Below, piece by piece: positions 549-24,764 of a stretch of DNA of 61,040 nucleotides. The position numbers were made by a program, and so were the translations under genes. The DNA comes from Nitrospira sp. CR1.2 (GTDB taxonomy: Bacteria; Nitrospirota; Nitrospiria; Nitrospirales; Nitrospiraceae), in NCBI GenBank assembly GCA_014055495.1, contig WIAG01000016.1, forward strand, positions 1 through 61,040, read 5' to 3'. How positions within the stretch are numbered: the first letter of the stretch is position 1; the number at the start of each line of letters is the position of its first letter. The notes under the pieces were generated by a model. That model saw only the letters and a list, made by a program, of their open reading frames with translations. It did not search any database and was not told the origin of the DNA.

Positions 549-1106
549 TCAAAACAACGGATGCGGCGACGTGCCGAAGGGCATCAACCGCGGGGAATCG
601 CCGACATTGCCTCGAATGCGCCACTCTCCGTCTTCGAACGTCATGTAGTGCACTTCCTCATACCAACTGTCGATCGGGACGCGTAAACCGCCGGTCTTGG
701 AGAGTCCGGACAAGCTGCCGGTGCAGGTGACTTCGATGATGGTCTTGGAGCCGCTGCCGACTTTGGCGAACCTCGAAAAATGGTGAACGTCGGTGAGGTC
801 CTGGAACTCATCGAACAGATTGGCCCACACCTTCCGCATGTCGGATTTTTTAAGACCGTGATAGTCGTACTGCTCGGAATAGAGGGCCATCACGCCATCG
901 AGGTCACGGGCGCGGATCGCCTCATCGGCCGCTCGAAAGGTGCGCATCACCGCGTCTGTCGTCGCCTGATCCAGCTCGGCCGCGGCTTCCGGCACCATCC
1001 GTACCTCGGCCCACGCTCCCGGCAGGATCGCGAGGAGAACCAGGATTCCACCGGTCACGAACCCGCTCCATTGCGTCCCTCTCCGCTGTCGTTTCCTCAT
1101 GGCCAT
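549..1106 (-). CDS. Exported NTF2-like (SnoaL/DUF4440-type) protein
   Basis: This 185-aa protein begins MAMRKRQRRGTQW, a basic N-terminus followed by a hydrophobic stretch (GGILVLLAILPGAWA) with a signal-peptidase-like AWA site. The mature part reads VMRTFRAADEAIRARDLDGVMALYSEQYDYHG and ends with a strand carrying EDGEWRIRGNVG, the cone-shaped NTF2/SnoaL layout found in DUF4440-type proteins. No catalytic residues can be assigned. An upstream in-frame start (position 1178) would overlap the preceding gene and put 24 polar residues before the signal peptide, so the internal ATG is preferred. A periplasmic ligand-binding or scaffold role is inference. Confidence 0.65.
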   Translation of the reverse strand: MAMRKRQRRGTQWSGFVTGGILVLLAILPGAWAEVRMVPEAAAELDQATTDAVMRTFRAADEAIRARDLDGVMALYSEQYDYHGLKKSDMRKVWANLFDEFQDLTDVHHFSRFAKVGSGSKTIIEVTCTGSLSGLSKTGGLRVPIDSWYEEVHYMTFEDGEWRIRGNVGDSPRLMPFGTSPHPLF

Positions 1107-1165
1107 CTCGCCTCGACCGCTCCAATCGCCCTCTGCACCCGATGCGTCCTGTTGACACCGAGGGG

Positions 1166-1666
1166 CTAACCGGTCCACATGATCCGGACAAACTCTTCGT
1201 CCTGATCGTACTGCACCTCCAGTTCCCCATGGTGTGCATGTTTCAGCGCTTCGCCGATGCGCCGGGGCAGGTGGGCGTCGGTGGTCAGGACGACCAGCCC
1301 CTCGGCCCGGTCTTCGATCGTCATGATGCGAGCCATGGGGTGGGATGTCTTTTCCTGTGCTTCGGTGTTGCGAATCAGCCCCATCACCTGATCGCGATGC
1401 TGGGTCGTATAGGGCCCCTTCAGCGTCACGAATCCCTTAGGATTTTTGTCCTGGATGCGGAGGCATGCGGGACACGTGATCTGCTCGGCGTCCGCCGGTT
1501 TGGCTTCCCACGTCCAGCGACCCTTCTGGTAGAGGGCGCCGCAGGTGACACAGACCGTCGGCTCCTTCAACTTGCCCGGCATCTTGTACGAATCGTGTTT
1601 ATATTCTTCGACGAACCGATCGCGGCGCGCGCCGTGGCCGCCTTCCGTCTGTTTGTTCATGGTCAT
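1166..1666 (-). CDS. BCAM0308-like protein with two CxxC zinc motifs
   Basis: This 166-aa soluble protein carries CVTCGALYQKGRW near residue 38 and CPACLRIQDKNPKGF about 26 residues later, a four-cysteine zinc-ribbon arrangement. The rest (RIMTIEDRAEGLVVLTTDAHLPRRIGEAL) resembles the NMD3-like half of proteins annotated as BCAM0308 family. The ATG is preceded by GGAAAGGG at suitable spacing. It lies between an exported NTF2-like protein and a phosphoribosyltransferase in a minus-strand stress block that also holds Hsp20 and UspA. Relatives usually occur in stress or anaerobic clusters. The biochemical function is unknown. Confidence 0.7.
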   Translation of the reverse strand: MTMNKQTEGGHGARRDRFVEEYKHDSYKMPGKLKEPTVCVTCGALYQKGRWTWEAKPADAEQITCPACLRIQDKNPKGFVTLKGPYTTQHRDQVMGLIRNTEAQEKTSHPMARIMTIEDRAEGLVVLTTDAHLPRRIGEALKHAHHGELEVQYDQDEEFVRIMWTG

Positions 1667-1714
1667 ACATCCCTTTCCTGGCCGGAGCGTCGCTTCATGG
1701 CGCCGTCCCGGCGC

Positions 1715-2368
1715 TCATGACCTGGTCACAAATGCTTCTTCCGCGAGGTTGAGATACTGCAACACTTCGCGGTCTTCGACCTGTTCGAAATCCCGGTAAA
1801 AGTTGCCGACGGCATAAAACGGCTCCGGTGTTCGGAGCACCACCAACTGATCCACGAGCGCCCGGGCCTGTTCCGCAGTACTGTGGGGGGCGACCGGAAC
1901 GGCTCCGATCACCCGTCGAGGATGCGCCTGGCGCACCGTCGCGACCGAGGCAAAAAAAGTCGCGCCGGTTGCCAGTCCGTCGTCGACGAGAATCACCGTC
2001 CGGTCTTTGAGTGGGGGGAACGGACGCCCCTGCCGGTAGAGGGCCACACGCCGGGCGACTTCCTCTTGTTGCGCCTGCACGGCGGCCGCAAGGTCTCGAT
2101 CCGTCAATGACAGGCCTGCAAGGGCCTCACGATTCCAGTAGACCGCTCCCGTCTCACTGACCGCTCCCAGCGCATATTCCGGATTGCCGGGCGCGCCGAT
2201 TTTTCGCGTGATCAGCACGTCGAGCGGGAGATGCAGGGCTAGACTCAATTGATAGGCCACCGCCACCCCTCCGCGCGGGAGCGCAAGAAGGATCGCCGCT
2301 GGATCGTTCCGGTAGGCGGCCAGTTCCTGTGCGAGCAATTCGCCGGCCTCTTCACGGTTTCTGAACAT
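1715..2368 (-). CDS. Phosphoribosyltransferase-domain protein
   Basis: A 217-aa cytosolic protein of the type I phosphoribosyltransferase fold. The PRPP loop reads VILVDDGLATGAT near residue 125. An earlier flexible-loop region (LLALPRGGVAVAYQL) and a C-terminal lid (VVLRTPEPFYAVGNFYRDF) are typical of the predicted phosphoribosyltransferases found next to Hsp20, UspA and erythromycin-esterase-like genes in stress islands. The substrate is not known for this subgroup. It shares strand and close spacing with the small membrane peptide and Hsp20 upstream. Confidence 0.85.
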   Translation of the reverse strand: MFRNREEAGELLAQELAAYRNDPAAILLALPRGGVAVAYQLSLALHLPLDVLITRKIGAPGNPEYALGAVSETGAVYWNREALAGLSLTDRDLAAAVQAQQEEVARRVALYRQGRPFPPLKDRTVILVDDGLATGATFFASVATVRQAHPRRVIGAVPVAPHSTAEQARALVDQLVVLRTPEPFYAVGNFYRDFEQVEDREVLQYLNLAEEAFVTRS

Positions 2369-2407
2369 GTCGCGTGATCCTTCTAGGCCAATGCCGTATG
2401 GGCCTGT

Positions 2408-2557
2408 CTACCAGAGTCCGCTGGTCACTCCCACGCCGATCAAAAAGAGGGCCGCAAGAATCACGAGGAAGACCAACCACCGGTGATGATGCGAGGACCC
2501 CTCCGGATGCCAATGCATTTCCCAGGGAATATCCAGATACCGAGGGTGTTTGAACAT
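2408..2557 (-). CDS. 49-aa single-pass membrane peptide
   Basis: Reading the minus strand from the ATG at 2557 gives MFKHPRYLDIPWEMHWHPEG, then a His-rich stretch (SSHHHRW), then one hydrophobic helix (LVFLVILAALFLIGVGV) and a short tail ending TSGLW. The SD-like AGGAGC (CGGAAGGAGCAGGCC upstream) fits the start. It is a predicted inner-membrane peptide of unknown function, placed between Hsp20 and the phosphoribosyltransferase on the same strand and therefore probably co-transcribed. The cytoplasmic side is rich in His and Trp. Confidence 0.6.
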   Translation of the reverse strand: MFKHPRYLDIPWEMHWHPEGSSHHHRWLVFLVILAALFLIGVGVTSGLW

Positions 2558-2573
2558 GGCCTGCTCCTTCCGC

Positions 2574-3047
2574 TCAGGAGACCTTCACCTCAATGGATTT
2601 CGGTTTGACCTTCTCCGATTTCGGCAGATGGACTTTCAGCACGCCGTCCTTATATTCCGCCGCGACCCTGCTGCCGTCGGCATCTTCCGGCAGCGTGAAG
2701 CTCCGCAAAAAACTGCCGTAGGCGCGTTCCACCCGGTGGTACTTCTTGTCCTTTTCTTCCTTCTCGTATTTCCGTTCACCGGAAATGGCGAGCACATTGT
2801 CCTGCACGGTCAGCTTCACATCTTCCTTCTTGATCTCCGGGAGCTCGGCCTTGATCAGGTATTCCTTCTCGTCTTCCGTGATGTCGACCAGCGGAGCCCA
2901 TTCTGCCGTCGAGATCGCTTCCTTTTGTCCTTCTACCTTGCCCTGTGGGCGGCCCCAGAGCGCCGACAGACGTTTCTCCACATCTTCCAGTTCCTTCCAA
3001 GGGTTCCACTGCGCGCGAAAGGGTTCCCAGCGAGTTAGTCCACTCAT
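2574..3047 (-). CDS. hsp20: Small heat-shock protein, Hsp20/alpha-crystallin family
   Basis: A 157-aa ATP-independent holdase chaperone. The N-terminus (MSGLTRWEPFRAQWNPWKEL) is the usual variable arm. The alpha-crystallin domain spans about residues 48-150, with VDITEDEKEYLIKAELPEI, the AISGERKYE strand and the hallmark A-x-x-x-DGVLKVHLPK motif. The length is normal. It is probably the first gene of the minus-strand stress block (Hsp20, membrane peptide, phosphoribosyltransferase, BCAM0308-like, NTF2-like, UspA). I found no CIRCE element or clear RpoH promoter in the upstream gap. Confidence 0.95.
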   Translation of the reverse strand: MSGLTRWEPFRAQWNPWKELEDVEKRLSALWGRPQGKVEGQKEAISTAEWAPLVDITEDEKEYLIKAELPEIKKEDVKLTVQDNVLAISGERKYEKEEKDKKYHRVERAYGSFLRSFTLPEDADGSRVAAEYKDGVLKVHLPKSEKVKPKSIEVKVS

Positions 3048-3615
3048 GATGCCGTCTCCTTTGTGTCAGCTTGTGGATTGTTCATCCTGCGCCTGACAAG
3101 TGTCCTTTCGGACGTCACGCGCAACTGCTTCTGGACCATTGCAGGCCCGATGCCAGGGAAAACATCCTGAGAGAGTCGCATGCGGGATCGGCGAAAGTTC
3201 ACTTGCTTAGGGCAACTAGGCGGACTGGGATGTGGATCGTCAGCGCGCGAGGGTGGGGCGATACGGGACAACAGCAGGGAGCGGCGATGGTGCCAATTAC
3301 CTCATTGATTCCAGGCGGACCGTGATTAATTGGATAGATGAAGGGAGGTGGAGCCAGGATAAGGTCGACATCCCCGCTTCCGTGCAGCGAAGAGTTGGTT
3401 CGGGGGTTGCGCCTGTGCCGGTTTCGGGATCAGTTCTGAAGGGACGCGCTTCCATCTCGGTGCCAGTATGAGGCACGGCTCCAGTGAGAGCCCGATGAAC
3501 GGGAGGCGCGGGGCATCCGGCGGGAGCGTTGTGCCGGGATGTCCGGATGGATCTCGCTCGGTCGGCAGGCCCGATCTCCACACGGAAGCGGGCTTTTTAA
3601 TTGTCGTGTCACCCG
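3048..3615. other. Intergenic region, no supported gene
   Basis: About 570 bases between hsp20 (reading left) and the end of the nucleotidyltransferase gene. Short open frames exist on both strands but none shows a recognisable domain, a ribosome site or consistent composition. A GCCCG/CGGGC hairpin followed by five T (3569-3598, plus strand) looks like a weak terminator, which could end an unrecognised small RNA read rightward. Confidence 0.5.
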
Positions 3616-4296
3616 CTAGCAAAGAAACGCCTTCCGCAGTTTGAGCAGGAACGCATCGGCGAGATCGGGGCGCGCCTCTTGCGTGCAGGTGCGAAGGCGG
3701 CGGGCGGCTTCTTCACTCCAATATTCACCCAGATCGATGACTTCCCCAGGCCGGTACTGTCCCGCCTTGATCCGACGGACGACTTCGCCGACCGGAGTTT
3801 CCGAGATCCTGATACTGAAGCTGCCGCGTTCCAGCAATTCGCAAAGATTAAACAGCACGCGCACGTAGGCTGCGGCGTATTTCGCCGGGCGGCCGTCCTT
3901 TTTCTCCAGCATTTTTTTGCGCTGGTTCTCGCAGTAGTTCAGAAATGAGTCATAGGCAGTTTGTGCGGACCAGAGCCGGGGGAAGAGCTGCCGGAGTTCG
4001 GTACCCCAGTCGTCCATCGTCACCACCGGCGCAACCAGCGTCTCCAGCACCAAGGGATGGCCCTGCAGTGCGAGTTGGAGAAAGTGCCCGATTTCCCAGG
4101 CGGTCTCGTCGTCTTCCTCCTTCATCATCCTGGTGCCTTGGTATTTGAAGCCGACACGGAACAATTCGGCGGTGGGCAGGACGAACACGCTGCGAAAATC
4201 CTTGTCGCTGTCCGGTCCGGCCAGGCCGTGCGCATGCGAGCCGACCACGACTTTCAAGATGCAGGTGTCGGTCGCTGGCGAGTGGGGTCTGCTCAT
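3616..4296 (-). CDS. Nucleotidyltransferase-domain protein (RlaP/PF10127-like)
   Basis: This 226-aa protein has the polymerase-beta-type motif GSHAHGLAGPDSDKDFRSVF near the N-terminus: Gly-Ser followed by an Asp pair in S-D-x-D, with D/R as in the predicted nucleotidyltransferases of PF10127. The C-terminal half is helical (SFLNYCENQRKKMLEKKDGR, then KAAGQYR-like helices), as in that family. The start MSRPH is fixed by an ATGA overlap with the upstream acyl carrier protein gene, implying translational coupling. The family is proposed to act on RNA ends, which fits poorly with an operon of acyl metabolism, so the substrate here is open. Confidence 0.75.
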   Translation of the reverse strand: MSRPHSPATDTCILKVVVGSHAHGLAGPDSDKDFRSVFVLPTAELFRVGFKYQGTRMMKEEDDETAWEIGHFLQLALQGHPLVLETLVAPVVTMDDWGTELRQLFPRLWSAQTAYDSFLNYCENQRKKMLEKKDGRPAKYAAAYVRVLFNLCELLERGSFSIRISETPVGEVVRRIKAGQYRPGEVIDLGEYWSEEAARRLRTCTQEARPDLADAFLLKLRKAFLC

Positions 4297-19450: not shown

Positions 19451-20347
19451 ATGGGGGCGCCGGGGATGCGATGGTTGATCGCCCTTGATGAATCGGAGTT
19501 CTCGGAGCGGATCCTTGGATGGATGCGCACGTTTCCCCATCCCGCGCACACGGTCCTGACCGTCGTGCATGTGCTGGAGCCTATCGAGCTCCCGGAGACG
19601 CTCGGCGCGAGGGGGCAGGCGTTGATACGTCAGCAACAGGGATCGATGGTGGAGGTGTTGTTGGATCGGGCTCGGGCATTGCTGGCGCAATCGTTTGAGA
19701 CGGTCGAGGTGATCCTGCGGGAGGGCGTGCCGAGTCAGGAGATTCTGCAGGTCATTCACGAGCATCAGCCGGATTTGGTCGTATCGGGCATGCGGGGATT
19801 CTACCGATCGGCGGGGGTTGCCTTCGGCAGCGTCTCGCAACGATTGCTGGCCTACGCTCCCTGTTCGCTGATGTTGGTGCCCGGCAAGGTGGCGCCGGGA
19901 GTCGGGCTGCGGGTGATGTTGGCGACCGACGGTTCGCCCGATGCCTTGCGCGCTGCCGGCCTCGTCAAGGATCTTCCGGGTGTGCAGGAGCTTGTCGTGG
20001 TGAGCGTCGTGCGTCCCCTCGGGGCGGCGCAAGCGGTGCTCGACCGGTTCCAGGGTGTTGAAAGTCGCACCATGCGAGCGGACTTGTTGCGCAGCAGGCG
20101 GGCGGCGGCGCGGAAGGCTCTTGCCGTGACCCTCGAGGTCCTGAAGGGACGACCGGCGAACATCCGTGCGGTGGTGTTGTCTGGTCATCCGGCCGAGGCC
20201 ATCGTTCGCGCAGCCAGGCGAGACGGGGCGGACCTGTTGGTCATCGGCGCTCGCGGGTATACGGGAGTGAAAGCGGTGGCGCTCGGCAGTGTGTCCCACG
20301 CCGTGGCGCAACTCGCGACCTGTCCGGTGCTGATCGTGAAACCGTAG
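19451..20347 (+). CDS. Tandem-domain universal stress protein
   Basis: A 298-aa protein with two complete Usp domains. Domain 1 runs from MRWLIALDESEFSER to GMRGFYRSAGVAFGSVSQRL; domain 2 from VMLATDGSPDALRAAG to GARGYTGVKAVALGSVSHAV, ending TCPVLIVKP. Both have the G-2x-G-9x-G-S nucleotide signature, so both may bind ATP. Met6 (19466) is an equally good start by family alignment. A PAS-LuxR regulator follows after 11 bases and is probably co-transcribed. Confidence 0.92.
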   Translation: MGAPGMRWLIALDESEFSERILGWMRTFPHPAHTVLTVVHVLEPIELPETLGARGQALIRQQQGSMVEVLLDRARALLAQSFETVEVILREGVPSQEILQVIHEHQPDLVVSGMRGFYRSAGVAFGSVSQRLLAYAPCSLMLVPGKVAPGVGLRVMLATDGSPDALRAAGLVKDLPGVQELVVVSVVRPLGAAQAVLDRFQGVESRTMRADLLRSRRAAARKALAVTLEVLKGRPANIRAVVLSGHPAEAIVRAARRDGADLLVIGARGYTGVKAVALGSVSHAVAQLATCPVLIVKP

Positions 20348-20358
20348 GAGGCATGGTC

Positions 20359-21057
20359 ATGGTGCAGATTGCGGAGATGGTGGCGCGTATCGCCGACGGT
20401 GCCATGCTGGCGGATGACACCGGCATCGTGAGGATGTGGAACAAAGCCGCCGAGCGGTTGCTGGGGTTTCGTACCGACGAAGTGGTGGGGCGCCCGTGCC
20501 AGGACGTCTTATGCGGCCGAACGCTGGATGGGGGTGAATTGTGTTCACCGACATGCGAAATCGGGAAGCGCCTTGCTGAAGGGACCGGCGTACGAAACTA
20601 CGATATGCAGACCCGCGCAAAATCAGGTCGGGTCGTGTGGATCAATATCAGCTCCATCCCCGTGCCGACCCGGAAGGCCGGCCGATTCATGAAGCTGCAT
20701 CTGTTTCGCGACATCAGCCGGCAGAGGAAGGTGCTTCAGTTGGCGGAGGATCTCCACGGAATGCTCTTGGCCACGGGCCAGGTGGCCTCGATGCCGGCGC
20801 CGGCGCGACCGGCGTCACAGGCCTCCGCAAAGCTGCCGGTCGGTCGAGGCACATCGTTGTTGACGAAACGGGAGCAGGACGTCCTGCGGTTGATGGCGGC
20901 CGGACATACGACACAGGAGATTGCGGACGCCCTGTGTATCAGCAGCGTAACGGTTCGAAATCACATCCAGCACATGTTTGAGAAGTTGGGCGCACACAGT
21001 CGTTTACAGGCTCTTGCCCTCGCCTTCCCCCCCGATCCGTCCCCAGCCCAGCGATAA
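20359..21057 (+). CDS. PAS-LuxR transcriptional regulator
   Basis: This 232-aa regulator has an N-terminal PAS domain (GAMLADDTGIVRMWNKAAERL, LGFRTDEVVGRPC, INISSIPVPTRKAGRFMKLHLFRDIS) and a C-terminal LuxR-type helix-turn-helix (LTKREQDVLRLMAAGHTTQEI through SSVTVRNHIQHMFEKLGAHS). The PAS loop holds four cysteines (CQDVLC, then CSPTC 13 residues on), which could sense redox state or bind metal. AGGAGG is placed correctly for the third of three close starts (20359), not the first. It lies between UspA and the secreted-protein cluster and may control either. Confidence 0.88.
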   Translation: MVQIAEMVARIADGAMLADDTGIVRMWNKAAERLLGFRTDEVVGRPCQDVLCGRTLDGGELCSPTCEIGKRLAEGTGVRNYDMQTRAKSGRVVWINISSIPVPTRKAGRFMKLHLFRDISRQRKVLQLAEDLHGMLLATGQVASMPAPARPASQASAKLPVGRGTSLLTKREQDVLRLMAAGHTTQEIADALCISSVTVRNHIQHMFEKLGAHSRLQALALAFPPDPSPAQR

Positions 21058-21105: not shown

Positions 21106-21147
21106 ATGATGCAACTCACTTAGCCTCAAAATGATGCAAACGTCTCA
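21106..21147. promoter_or_regulatory. Direct and inverted repeats ahead of the secreted-protein cluster
   Basis: ATGATGCAA occurs at 21106-21114 and again at 21131-21139, 25 bases apart. A TGAGACG (21082-21088) and CGTCTCA (21141-21147) pair flanks them. They lie immediately upstream of a -35 box, the position of an activator site. Confidence 0.4.
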
Positions 21148-21176
21148 TTGTCCGAACGGTGTTGCCTGCCTACACT
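21148..21176 (+). promoter_or_regulatory. Predicted sigma-70 promoter of the secreted-protein cluster
   Basis: TTGTCC, a 17-base spacer and TACACT. Transcription would begin near 21183, leaving a leader of about 67 bases before the first cluster gene. Confidence 0.5.
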
Positions 21177-21249: not shown

Positions 21250-21672
21250 ATGTGGGTCATCGATCATCCAGGGCGGACGATGGCGGTGTTGATGGCGCTC
21301 ACGGGTGTGTTGGTCGTCTTCCTCGGCGGACCGCTGGTGACTCCACCCGGAGAGGAGGGGTGGCTCGACTCCTTGATGCAGGCGGTGCTCGCCGAACAGG
21401 CGAACGAAGGCCCATGGTGGGGGATGTATGCTCCATACGTGGAGCAGTTGCGAGCCATCCAAGCGGACTATGACCGGGGAGAGACTGCGGCGGTGTACGT
21501 GGGGATGAATCGATTCATGGACATGCTGGAACAGCGTGCGTTTGGGATTTCCGCCGACAGCGCGGACCGGTTGTTCGACTATTGTTATACGGTGACGCCG
21601 GCTCGATACCACGATGTCTCGCGCCACATCGAGAAGTTCAGGCGGGATCAATTCGGAGAATCCCACGGCTGA
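21250..21672 (+). CDS. Exported MNRFMDML-family protein, copy 1
   Basis: A 140-aa protein of a family I do not recognise. An N-terminal hydrophobic segment (MAVLMALTGVLVVFLGGPLV) is a signal peptide or anchor. The mature part has WLDSLMQAVLAEQA, a Tyr-rich helix, then MNRFMDMLEQRAFGIS and LFDYCYTVTPARYHDVSRH. All of these recur in the proteins at 23844-24350 and 24369-24764. The only cysteine in the mature region is in DYCY. The pattern is all-helical and recalls small helical-bundle periplasmic proteins. GGAG precedes the ATG. It is the first gene of the cluster that also holds four cupredoxin-like proteins. Confidence 0.75.
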   Translation: MWVIDHPGRTMAVLMALTGVLVVFLGGPLVTPPGEEGWLDSLMQAVLAEQANEGPWWGMYAPYVEQLRAIQADYDRGETAAVYVGMNRFMDMLEQRAFGISADSADRLFDYCYTVTPARYHDVSRHIEKFRRDQFGESHG

Positions 21673-21701
21673 CCTGAACCGGTTCAGGAAGGGGGTGCGC
21701 C

Positions 21702-22190
21702 ATGAGAACAACCACACGTCATTCGGCAACCTTGATGTGGCTTTCGACGACGTTGGCGGTGGGTGTGCTGTTTGGAACGGACATTGCGGTAGCCCCTGCG
21801 GCGGCGTCGGAGAAAGAACATGCTGAGCCGGCGATCCAGGTCACCATCAAGAACATGGCATTCCATGTCACGGGGTACGGTCGTGAGGGGACGCAGACCG
21901 CCGTCGTAGTCAGGAACGACGATGGAGTGACGCACGGATTTTACTCGCCGCTGTTCAAGGATACCTCGGTTCGGCTGGAGGGCGACGGGTATCAGGTCGG
22001 GGGAAAAGAAGGGCTCGCGTATCGCGTGGATCCGGGCAAGACGATGACGCTGCATTTCACCAAGGGCTCAGCTGAGGGGGCACTCACCATGATGAGTCCC
22101 TTGGTGCCTCACGTCATCGAGTGCGATATGCATCCTGATGTCAAAGGAGAAGTATTCATCATCGAGCGTCGCTCGGTATCGAGGAGGTGA
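21702..22190 (+). CDS. Cupredoxin-like periplasmic protein A
   Basis: This 162-aa protein has a signal peptide (TTLAVGVLFGTDIAVAPAAA) and a beta-rich body: IQVTIKNMAFHV, TAVVVRNDDGVTHGFYSPLF, AYRVDPGKTMTLHF and HVIECDMHPDVKGEVFIIE. This is the cupredoxin layout with His in THGF and Cys and His in CDMHPDVKGE, the usual C-x(2-4)-H ligand loop. The expected axial Met after the His is replaced by Lys-Gly-Glu, so it may bind copper in a three-ligand or red-shifted site, or not at all. The next gene encodes a paralogue. Confidence 0.75.
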   Translation: MRTTTRHSATLMWLSTTLAVGVLFGTDIAVAPAAASEKEHAEPAIQVTIKNMAFHVTGYGREGTQTAVVVRNDDGVTHGFYSPLFKDTSVRLEGDGYQVGGKEGLAYRVDPGKTMTLHFTKGSAEGALTMMSPLVPHVIECDMHPDVKGEVFIIERRSVSRR

Positions 22191-22285
22191 TGTCTGCCGG
22201 GGCACGGTGCCATGAGATGGATCGAGATCAGGTTGGAACAGACAACGGTCTGAGCAGTTCACGCATCGAACGAAGGAGGGCAATC

Positions 22286-22783
22286 ATGAGCATCAGAGGA
22301 CACACAGGACGATTGCTAGCGGTGGTCGTGGCCGGCGCGGCCATGACGGTCTGGTCGGCAGTGGGCGTCGACTCCGCCCTGGGTCAGGCGCCGGGGATGG
22401 GGGCTCCGCCGTCGAAGGTGGAGATCACCATCAAGGATCGGCACCACGGTTATGAGACCGTGGGGTTCACGATGCCGTCGCATGACACGACGGTCGTGGT
22501 GCACAACCAGGACACGGTGACGCATGGGTTCGCGTCGAACCTGTTCAAGGGGCTTCCGGTTCGCGTCGAAGGCGGGATTGAGGTGCAAGGGAAACACTTC
22601 AAATCGTACCATGTCGATGCGGGAAAGACGATGACGCTGCACTTCTCCACGGCGCCGTCGGTGTTCGATCCGGCGACCGGCATTGCCGAAAGCATGCGGC
22701 ATGCCCTCTGGTGTGACATTCATCCCGAAGTGAAGGGGGAGTTGTATGTCATCGAAACCAGGGGCGAGATCGGCGGCGGCTGA
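22286..22783 (+). CDS. Cupredoxin-like periplasmic protein B
   Basis: A 165-aa paralogue of the preceding protein. The signal peptide is followed by VEITIKDRHHGYETVGFTMP, VVVHNQDTVTHGFASNLFKG, YHVDAGKTMTLHFSTA and ALWCDIHPEVKGELYVIE. The His (THGF), Cys and His (CDIHPEVKGE) positions are kept and the axial Met is again absent. AGGAGGG lies just ahead of MSIRGH; the frame is open upstream but overlaps the previous gene. The D/N-x-V-T-H-G-F and C-D-x-H-P-x-V-K-G-E blocks are nearly identical in the pair, pointing to recent duplication. Confidence 0.75.
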   Translation: MSIRGHTGRLLAVVVAGAAMTVWSAVGVDSALGQAPGMGAPPSKVEITIKDRHHGYETVGFTMPSHDTTVVVHNQDTVTHGFASNLFKGLPVRVEGGIEVQGKHFKSYHVDAGKTMTLHFSTAPSVFDPATGIAESMRHALWCDIHPEVKGELYVIETRGEIGGG

Positions 22784-22818
22784 CCGTCACGTTTGCCGGG
22801 AATCGAGAGGGCTCAGCC

Positions 22819-23271
22819 ATGAGACGTAGGGGGTCAGCCCTGTTGATGAACGGCGTGGCGACCGTAGCCCTGGTCGGAACCCTGAGCGTGGGGCATTCGA
22901 CCGGGGCTGCGGAACTTCATTTTGCCGTCGAGGAGGTCGAGGGGAAACGGGCTCTCTGGATGCCGCAGGAGGTGGTGCTCCACCGCAGCACGGAACTGGT
23001 GGACGGTCTGGTGTTCGTGTTGGAAAACCCCACGGATCGGACCCATGCCTTTGCGGCCTACGGCCTGTTCGAGGAGGTGGCGACCGCCGGCGGAGGTGTT
23101 GCCAGGAAGCCGTTGCGTGTCAATGTCACGTCGGAGGATACGGTTCGCGTGCAGATCAGCACGGCGCAGTTTCTCGGGCGTACGGATGCGGAGATCGAAG
23201 AATTTCCGTTTTTTTGCCCCCTGCATCGAGGCGATGCCCACGTGGGCGGCACGATCCGCGTGATCCCCTAA
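22819..23271 (+). CDS. Cupredoxin-like periplasmic protein C
   Basis: A 150-aa exported protein of a second cupredoxin-like type. After the signal peptide (NGVATVALVGTLSVGHSTGA) the body reads ELHFAVEEVEGKRALWMPQE, VDGLVFVLENPTDRTHAFAA, LRVNVTSEDTVRVQIS and FPFFCPLHRGDAHVGGTIRV. Candidate ligands are the His in RTHAF and Cys and His in FFCPLH. It differs from proteins A and B by CPLH instead of CDxHP and by a conserved acidic E-V-E-G start. The gene after it encodes its paralogue. Confidence 0.72.
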   Translation: MRRRGSALLMNGVATVALVGTLSVGHSTGAAELHFAVEEVEGKRALWMPQEVVLHRSTELVDGLVFVLENPTDRTHAFAAYGLFEEVATAGGGVARKPLRVNVTSEDTVRVQISTAQFLGRTDAEIEEFPFFCPLHRGDAHVGGTIRVIP

Positions 23272-23297
23272 CCCCTCCCCGTGAAGTCGGAGATACG

Positions 23298-23783
23298 ATG
23301 GGACAGGACGTGAAGGGCGGAGAGAAAGGCCGCAACGGTCTCCGGCTCCCGGTGATCGGACTTTTCCTGGTGATCGTGGGTATGGCCGCGATTCCTGCGA
23401 AGGCGGCTGCCGGAACATTTCGCTTTGTGGTGCAGGATGTGGAGGGGGGCGCGGCGGCCTGGTTTCCGCGCGAGGTCGTCATTCGGAAGAGCACGGATCT
23501 CGAGGGGGGATTGCATTTCATTCTGGAGAATCCGACGCCTCGCACCCATGTGTTCGAAGCTCCGGATCTCTTCGAACAGACGACGGAGGGGACCGACGTG
23601 CCGGCCCTCAAACCGTTGCGGGTCTATGTGGCCCCCGGAGAGACCGTGCAGGTGCAGATCAGCAGCGAGCAGTTGTCCCGCGGGCCGGAAGCCGATGCGT
23701 CGGGCTCGCAGAACTGCCCGTTCTTCTGCCCGTTGCACGGGACCGAGGACGCGGTGCGCAGTATGATCCGGGTGGTGCCGTAA
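23298..23783 (+). CDS. Cupredoxin-like periplasmic protein D
   Basis: A 161-aa paralogue of protein C: signal peptide (LPVIGLFLVIVGMAAIPAKA), then FRFVVQDVEGGAAAWFPREV, LHFILENPTPRTHVFEAPDL, LRVYVAPGETVQVQIS and CPFFCPLHGTEDAV. It has one more cysteine than C (NCPFFCPLH), which could give C-x3-C-x2-H metal or disulfide chemistry. GGAG five bases before the ATG supports the start; the frame is open further upstream inside gene C. An MNRFMDML-family gene follows. Confidence 0.72.
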   Translation: MGQDVKGGEKGRNGLRLPVIGLFLVIVGMAAIPAKAAAGTFRFVVQDVEGGAAAWFPREVVIRKSTDLEGGLHFILENPTPRTHVFEAPDLFEQTTEGTDVPALKPLRVYVAPGETVQVQISSEQLSRGPEADASGSQNCPFFCPLHGTEDAVRSMIRVVP

Positions 23784-23843
23784 CCGGCGTTGATACCACC
23801 ACGCCTGGGTGATGGCGCAGAGACCGGAAGACGGAGGGCAACC

Positions 23844-24350
23844 ATGACGCCCTTTGTGACCTGGAGAGCGGTCGCGGCGATGCTCGCGTGGCTCCTCGCC
23901 TCGGCAGTGGCCCCCTGGCCTGGCGGGCCGGTACACACAGGTGCGAGTGAGCCGGTGAAGCCACGGCGCGAGGTCCCAGGCAACATCGGTACGGTGGCTC
24001 CCCGGTCCGTCGACTCGGCGGGTTGGCTGGATCAACTGGCGGCGTTCGTCGTTGTCCAACGGAGCCTGGCCGGGACTCGGGGCGAAGCCGGATCGTACGA
24101 TGCGTATGTCGGTCAGATCGTGCTGGTGCGAAGCCTGTATGAGCGGGGCGAGTGGAGCGGGGCCTTCGCGACGATGAATCGATTCATGGATATGCTGGAG
24201 GCGCGCGAAGGCGGAATCAGCGGGCAGGCGGCCGACGCGCTCTGGGACTACTGTTATGTGGTGACTCCGCCGGCCTTGCACGACGTCAAACGGCATCGAC
24301 AATGGTGGGAGAAGCATGTGGAGTGGGAGAGATTTTTCTGGGAGGAATAG
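23844..24350 (+). CDS. Exported MNRFMDML-family protein, copy 2
   Basis: A 168-aa member, longer than its paralogues because of a spacer (SEPVKPRREVPGNIGTVAPR) after the signal peptide. The family blocks are WLDQLAAFVVVQRS, MNRFMDMLEAREGGIS and LWDYCYVVTPPALHDVKRH. The first block is the most diverged of the three copies. GGAGGG ahead of the ATG supports this start over an upstream in-frame Met. It is followed by copy 3 with only 18 bases between stop and start. Confidence 0.75.
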   Translation: MTPFVTWRAVAAMLAWLLASAVAPWPGGPVHTGASEPVKPRREVPGNIGTVAPRSVDSAGWLDQLAAFVVVQRSLAGTRGEAGSYDAYVGQIVLVRSLYERGEWSGAFATMNRFMDMLEAREGGISGQAADALWDYCYVVTPPALHDVKRHRQWWEKHVEWERFFWEE

Positions 24351-24368
24351 GGTGGAGTGAGGGCGATC

Positions 24369-24764
24369 ATGCGAATCATTGAAGACATCAGATGGATGGC
24401 GGGAATCGTCCTGTTCCTGGCGAGCGTCATCTGTGCCGCGCCGGGCGGAGTGGGCGTGGCCTCTGCGGCCGGAGACGACTGGCTCGATGCTCTAGTGCAA
24501 GCGGTGCTTGCCGAGCAGGCGAAGGACGCCTTGCTGGGAAGCACCTTTATGCCCTACCTCGCGCAATTGACCGTGGTGCGAGCCAACTTGCTCAACGGCG
24601 AAAGCGAGGCGGTGTATGGAACGATGAATCGCTTCATGGACATGCTCCAAGCGCGGGAGGCAGGCATTTCACAGGAGGCGGCAGACCGGCTGTTCGACTA
24701 TTGTTACGTCGTGACGCCGGCGCGCTACCACGATGTCTCCCGGCATTTGCACCGGTTGAGCTGA
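24369..24764 (+). CDS. Exported MNRFMDML-family protein, copy 3
   Basis: A 131-aa member closest to copy 1: signal peptide (GIVLFLASVICAAPGGVGVA), WLDALVQAVLAEQAKDALLG, YGTMNRFMDMLQAREAGISQ and LFDYCYVVTPARYHDVSRHL. The single mature cysteine in DYCY is kept. GAGGGC sits ahead of the ATG; a GTG four codons earlier is possible. It is the last gene of the cluster; the next gene (MlaC-like) is on the opposite strand. Confidence 0.75.
   Translation: MRIIEDIRWMAGIVLFLASVICAAPGGVGVASAAGDDWLDALVQAVLAEQAKDALLGSTFMPYLAQLTVVRANLLNGESEAVYGTMNRFMDMLQAREAGISQEAADRLFDYCYVVTPARYHDVSRHLHRLS

Follow-up and report, generated by a model that had tools for sequence, protein, structure and literature searches.

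What do four small exported cupredoxin-like proteins, encoded in a row with three copies of an unnamed helical protein, contribute to a Nitrospira cell? The question is raised by a stretch of 61,040 nucleotides (nt) of Nitrospira sp. CR1.2 (the window; contig C91, in a genome of 4.06 Mb), in which the genes X1, cupA, cupB, cupC, cupD, X2 and X3 follow a PAS-LuxR regulator gene. The initial annotation of the window suggested a periplasmic redox or copper-handling system. Our comparison of loci shows that in several Nitrospiraceae genera the order X-CupA-CupB-CupC-CupD-X-X is found together with the PAS-LuxR gene and an operator. We read the cluster as a dedicated periplasmic electron-transfer operon that would be switched on by the PAS-LuxR protein, a reading that in our judgement has about an even chance of being right; the electron transfer itself we infer from the genes and their surroundings.

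Results

The seven open reading frames (ORFs), all on the forward strand within 21250-24764, were found where the initial annotation had placed them, with short gaps of 18-95 nt (29, 95, 35, 26, 60 and 18 nt in order from X1 to X3), and so were the PAS-LuxR and UspA genes that it had put upstream. The features are as follows, the start positions of the seven cluster genes being likely starts.

19451-20347: UspA gene, upstream of the cluster
20353-21057, forward strand: PAS-LuxR regulator (P0008), predicted activator of the cluster (Pfam PAS_9 2.4e-12, GerE 2.9e-19)
21129-21151, forward strand: predicted operator AAATGATGCAAACGTCTCATTGT, palindrome AATGA-N10-TCATT, from upstream-region comparison and motif search
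21148-21176, forward strand: predicted weak sigma-70 promoter TTGTCC-N17-TACACT, its -35 element overlapping the operator
21250-21672, forward strand: X1, small exported helical protein
21702-22190, forward strand: CupA, CUP1-family cupredoxin with axial Val (CDMHPDV)
22286-22783, forward strand: CupB, CUP1-family cupredoxin with axial Val (CDIHPEV), the best conserved of the Cup proteins
22819-23271, forward strand: CupC, CUP2-family cupredoxin with His at Cys+8 (CPLHRGDAH)
23298-23783, forward strand: CupD, CUP2-family cupredoxin with neither Met nor His at Cys+8 (AlphaFold2 model, Foldseek)
23844-24350, forward strand: X2, X-family paralogue whose N-terminal part is longer
24369-24764, forward strand: X3, X-family paralogue whose close relatives persist in genomes that lack Cup genes

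We take these genes to be real since the ratio of nonsynonymous to synonymous substitution rates (dN/dS) is about 0.1-0.3 for cupA-D, X2 and X3, and since 12 of 25 congeneric genomes have an orthologous cluster. Most of the seven ORFs are preceded by a purine-rich ribosome-binding site, and by inspection all seven products begin with a hydrophobic, signal-like segment, in keeping with the signal sequences first ascribed to them. None of the seven scores above a Pfam family cut-off, and NCBIfam assigns no family to the X or Cup proteins. A foreign origin of the cluster finds no support in its composition, its G+C fraction being 0.62 as against 0.60-0.62 in the flanks.

Judged from these loci, the full cluster is steadily accompanied by the PAS-LuxR regulator and its operator. 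Comparing the regions upstream of the clusters revealed a conserved block, and the promoter and repeats that had been noticed ahead of X1 can now be specified as the palindrome AATGA-N10-TCATT, a direct repeat of ATGATGCAA, and TTGTCC-N17-TACACT. The pattern AAATGATGCANNCGNCTCATTGT has a single exact match in the window, at 21129-21151, where none is expected by chance. When two mismatches or fewer are allowed, the operator appears, among 41 genomes searched, only in the 12 that carry CUP2 (the family of CupC and CupD) and there ahead of the clusters; clusters of other genera have this block ahead of them as well (L181, with three copies, L182, L183 and L184). All 12 CUP2 genomes, and none of the 13 remaining congeneric ones, have a PAS-LuxR protein that matches P0008 at E ≤ 1e-20; in G017 its gene lies on a different contig. 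The combination of CupC/D, PAS-LuxR and operator thus stands at 12/12 versus 0/13 congeneric genomes (Fisher p = 1.9e-7, uncorrected for phylogeny). In 22 of 25 cluster loci the PAS-LuxR gene is near the Cup genes, or in 19 of 22 when three loci that are the same genome fetched twice are removed. Every other non-core neighbour occurs in at most eight of the 25 loci, Usp being present in eight.

The right end of the palindrome runs into TTGTCC, 17 nt from TACACT, so the palindrome would be centred at about -43 if the promoter is right. An operator that overlaps the -35 element and is centred at about -41 to -44 defines the geometry of class II activation, and this is the arrangement computed here. 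A generic sigma-70 consensus scan left the predicted promoter below threshold, which fits a weak, activator-dependent promoter. Of 21 distinct regulator orthologues, 20 retain the PAS-domain motifs GRxC and CSxxC, whose cysteines may have a metal or redox role.

The same cluster is carried by Candidatus Nitrospira defluvii (FP929003.1, 3,808,053-3,812,648) and other Nitrospira metagenome-assembled genomes. Within the genus, where CUP2 occurs in 12 of the 25 genomes, the order X1-CupA-CupB-CupC-CupD-X2-X3, or that order short of one member, is seen in the window and in G007, G013, G014, G017, G019 and G023, and shorter versions in G001, G004, G006, G015 and G020. Of 118 genomes from across the family, 38 have CUP2 and 62 have X. 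Close relatives of X3 occur without Cup genes in seven congeneric genomes (G005, G008, G009, G018, G021, G022 and G024), several of them near the same MlaC gene. Conversely, in 13 sister-lineage loci (L114, L115 and L117-L127) a CupB orthologue adjoins a c-type cytochrome of about 468 residues, with four CXXCH motifs in 12 of the 13 and three in one shorter call, and no X gene lies within the fetched flanks. All 13 loci were selected by a CUP2 match, though CUP2 is not called as a separate ORF in six. Since X occurs without Cup in the seven genomes and CupB without X in the 13 loci, X and Cup are, on this comparison, separable modules joined in the operator-linked cluster. The co-occurrence that had been proposed as a check held in part: a conserved unit with its regulator exists in 12 of 25 congeneric genomes, but the two gene families also live apart.

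Could the X genes be functionally unrelated passengers? One could suppose that the system consists only of the PAS-LuxR-controlled Cup genes, inserted beside a pre-existing X3 and joined by its duplicates. Such a history would suit the Cup-less X3 that several genomes have at the equivalent site near MlaC and the X-less Cup genes that adjoin a cytochrome. However the operator-linked clusters of several genera include X genes, frequently at both ends and inside the predicted transcript, and X2 and X3 are under purifying selection; we consider the passenger explanation distinctly unlikely.

Three loci are worth recording for their arrangement. L181 (G269) packs three Cup/X clusters into about 15 kb, along with two PAS-LuxR genes and three operator-like copies. 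In G014 a mercury operon with MerR/MerT/MerP-like genes (L064 3219-5009) lies between two Cup/X clusters that have operator-like sites of their own. A full Nitrospira-like cluster on a contig from a bin labelled Gaiellales (Actinomycetota; L103) is probably misbinned.

The four Cup proteins, described at the outset as two pairs with two motif types, indeed fall into two sister cupredoxin families in our alignments: CUP1 (alignment A2), with CupA, CupB and further paralogues, and CUP2 (A3), with CupC and CupD. H80, C143 and H146 are invariant in CUP1 and H84, C144 and H147 in CUP2, so that the equatorial ligands His, Cys, His of a type 1 copper site are present in both. CupA and CupB match Cupredoxin_1 (PF13473) weakly, below the Pfam cut-off, and 30 of 32 CUP1 members match it at least weakly; CupC and CupD match no Pfam family. 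The cupredoxin (Greek-key beta-barrel) fold is supported for CupD by its AlphaFold2 model, a predicted cupredoxin barrel with a predicted local distance difference test score (pLDDT) of 80.3, for which Foldseek lists nitrosocyanin first and then laccases and plastocyanin (best E 2.5e-5). CUP1 is joined to the fold by its profile, which finds nitrosocyanin in the PDB (E 4e-4). A PDB sequence search with CUP2 gave no matches; around the Cys-His loop CUP1, CUP2 and nitrosocyanin align with one another.

The axial position is where the families depart from the classic site, for none of CupA-D keeps the axial Met. In CUP1 the residue at Cys+6, which is the axial Met position of C-x2-H-x2-M proteins, is Val or Ile in 52 of 53 distinct CupA/CupB-type sequences (the lone exception, in L193, has Ala). 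It is Met in 14 paralogues of the stand-alone type and Glu or Phe in three divergent ones. A single Met/Val change is needed on the CUP1 tree (support 93/89), and none of 500 shuffles gave so low a number. In CUP2, Cys+8 is His in 23 of 25 distinct CupC-type sequences and aligns without a gap to His103 of nitrosocyanin; in CupD-type sequences this residue is Asp, Ala, Glu, Thr or Val. Hydrophobic residues at the axial position raise the potential of type 1 copper: in a laccase, replacing the axial Met raised the potential by 52 mV with Ala (M460A, 357 to 409 mV), 59 mV with Phe and 14 mV with His, and fungal laccases with axial Leu or Phe reach 470-790 mV (PMC6487685). By analogy with these changes, it is a reasonable prediction that the potentials of CupA, CupB and CupD are raised by the loss of the axial Met.

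Some observations concern individual CUP1 members. The window CupA has Glu in place of the Trp that directly precedes the ligand Cys in other CupA/CupB-type sequences (ECDMHP), sits on a long tree branch and may be diverging. A Met-type paralogue lies among Usp, Hsp20 and phosphoribosyltransferase-like stress genes in L076, L077, L078, L079 and L095; the counterpart of this region in the window, 549-3616, is without the Met-type gene. Another, present in most genomes of the genus (L218 5493-5921, L219 5503-5931), has universal stress protein genes on its flanks and hydrogenase/NADH-dehydrogenase-like genes downstream.

The resemblance to nitrosocyanin raises the possibility of reactive-nitrogen defence or sensing, in which CupC would act on nitric oxide or related species as a nitrosocyanin-like protein and the set would be induced by nitrosative or redox stress. 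Nitrosocyanin is the nearest solved fold to CUP2 and its C-x2-H-x4-H spacing is matched, in 8 of 25 loci the cluster has a UspA gene next to it, and Usp and Hsp20 genes surround several Met-type CUP1 paralogues. On the other hand CUP2 has His at the position of nitrosocyanin Glu60, implying a site that is probably without the open red-copper geometry, and the function of nitrosocyanin itself is unsettled. We think this explanation very unlikely.

X1 and X2 are 51% and 46% identical to X3, and with no Pfam match above cut-off the first description of three paralogues of an unrecognised helical family stands: X is an unnamed family. Two more distant paralogues lie elsewhere in the genome, on contigs C70 (L055 1010-1501) and C87 (L056 6467-6862). 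Both types are widespread in the genus; one of these two genes adjoins porin-like and sigma-54-type regulator genes, the other sensor kinase, response regulator and protease/FGE-like genes. The motif DYCY/DFCY..TP...H....RH is common to X1-X3 and the C70-type paralogue and missing from the C87 type. A fourth subfamily, in L090, L091 and L093 (MNRFLEMLET..GGIS), has no Cys, and its gene in L093 adjoins genes for NADH-dehydrogenase-like subunits. An AlphaFold2 model of X has four core helices after the signal-like segment (pLDDT 79.7, the core mostly above 90). Foldseek with this model returned no E below 0.34, and the best structural match (7nsn_B 1229-1409, part of a GH92 mannosidase, Z 9.8) is within the range of common helical bundles. 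PDB sequence searches with X gave chance-level matches only. FIMAH (PF22888) matches 19 of 45 X-family members weakly (best E 9.4e-5). In the window X1 and X3 match it weakly, and P0007 (14.5 bits) and P0001 (13.9 bits) fall below its cut-off of 24.8. A likeness of X3 to a circular bacteriocin (E 0.0012, N-terminal half, below cut-off) was set aside as a chance match on the signal-like segment.

The X proteins bring in the main rival to electron transfer, namely periplasmic buffering and detoxification of copper or another metal, with the Cup proteins sequestering Cu(I)/Cu(II) and X, through conserved Cys and His, storing or delivering the metal. X1-X3 share DYCY..TP...HD..RH and several Met, copper-storage proteins, which are helical bundles, turn up as weak structural matches of X, and G006 (L060) has a PAS-LuxR-CupB-X unit with a CopZ/CopA-like pair downstream. 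Against this, no copper-homeostasis gene recurs in the 25 cluster loci, the metal genes of G014 resemble a mer operon, the regulator is a PAS-LuxR protein and not a known copper regulator, and the cupredoxin sites are single and mononuclear rather than of high capacity. Because copper-homeostasis genes do not recur nearby, buffering is less supported than electron transfer, and we consider it rather unlikely.

Discussion

How might such a cluster work? In the mechanism that we propose, the PAS-LuxR protein would sense a redox or metal signal through three conserved cysteines, bind AATGA-N10-TCATT centred at about -43 and activate the weak promoter by class II activation. The exported Cup proteins would bind type-1-like copper, with Val or Ala in place of Met raising the potential of CupA, CupB and CupD and the axial His making CupC a distinct, nitrosocyanin-like site. 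Together they would span several potentials and pass electrons to or from c-type cytochromes, while the X proteins would be helical partners of the Cup proteins, in docking, scaffolding or metal delivery.

We favour electron transfer because the copper ligands are conserved and the axial positions altered, because cytochromes lie beside or near the Cup genes in the sister lineages and in two congeneric genomes, and because the cupredoxin-like proteins of the nitrite oxidoreductase (NXR) gene cluster have already been proposed to carry electrons (PMC3578206). In those two genomes (L057, L060) a tetrahaem cytochrome is close to PAS-LuxR/CupB and adjoins a sulfite-oxidase-like gene and further cytochromes. 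The set probably carries electrons at high potential on the outer side of the inner membrane. Of the two functions first offered, redox is in our view the better reading, and copper handling finds little support in the neighbourhoods of the 25 loci.

Several points weigh against electron transfer. In the window genome the tetrahaem cytochrome is on another contig, C98, and the axial ligand is not the only determinant of a potential. Moreover the cluster is absent from half of the congeneric genomes, which implies that it belongs neither to core nitrite oxidation nor to a route that nitrite electrons must take; it may serve as a conditional branch of electron flow.

More tentatively, it is possible, though we would not count on it, that the cluster represents a periplasmic copper redox system of a new kind: a PAS-LuxR regulon of one operon, with four cupredoxins tuned by axial Val, Val, His and Ala/Asp, CupC as a natural three-His-one-Cys site, and a new family of helical partners serving them. 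The parts, cupredoxins and PAS-LuxR, are known in kind. We found no published description of the cluster in the open-licence literature on Nitrospira cupredoxins, nitrosocyanin and plastocyanin, in agreement with the early remark that no system of this composition had been described. As far as that literature shows, the assembly, the operator, the family-wide axial change from Met to Val, the CupC His and the X family are apparently undescribed.

The electron route of Nitrospira from nitrite oxidoreductase to oxidase or reverse transport is only partly known, and four conserved, separately regulated cupredoxins with altered axial ligands are concrete candidates for high-potential carriers. CupC would be a natural test of the effect of an axial His in a cupredoxin, and the operator and regulator make the trigger of the cluster directly testable.

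Comparison with known systems

X resembles FIMAH weakly and differs from it as a free-standing exported protein with a Cys/His motif of its own; the window members score far below its cut-off, and the structural match of X is no better than that of common helical bundles. The amicyanin-like small blue copper proteins (C-x2-H-x2-M; PF13473) have a pattern that fits the CUP1 paralogues outside the cluster, whereas CupA and CupB have Val where these have Met, and their scores stay under the Pfam cut-off. With nitrosocyanin, the red copper protein of Nitrosomonas europaea (1IBY/1IBZ/1IC0) whose structures are the top Foldseek matches of CupD, the Cup proteins share the cupredoxin fold at about 15% sequence identity and in a different operon context. 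Only CupC matches its C-x2-H-x4-H spacing, without gaps, the second downstream His being missing from CupA, CupB and CupD, and its fourth ligand, Glu60, is replaced by His in CUP1 and CUP2 (RTHAF and VTHGF). Finally, the cupredoxin-like proteins of the conserved NXR gene cluster of Nitrospina, Nitrospira and Kuenenia, which have been proposed as electron carriers (PMC3578206), are likewise several, small and from nitrite oxidisers. That cluster differs in composition, PAS-LuxR, operator and X family not being described there.

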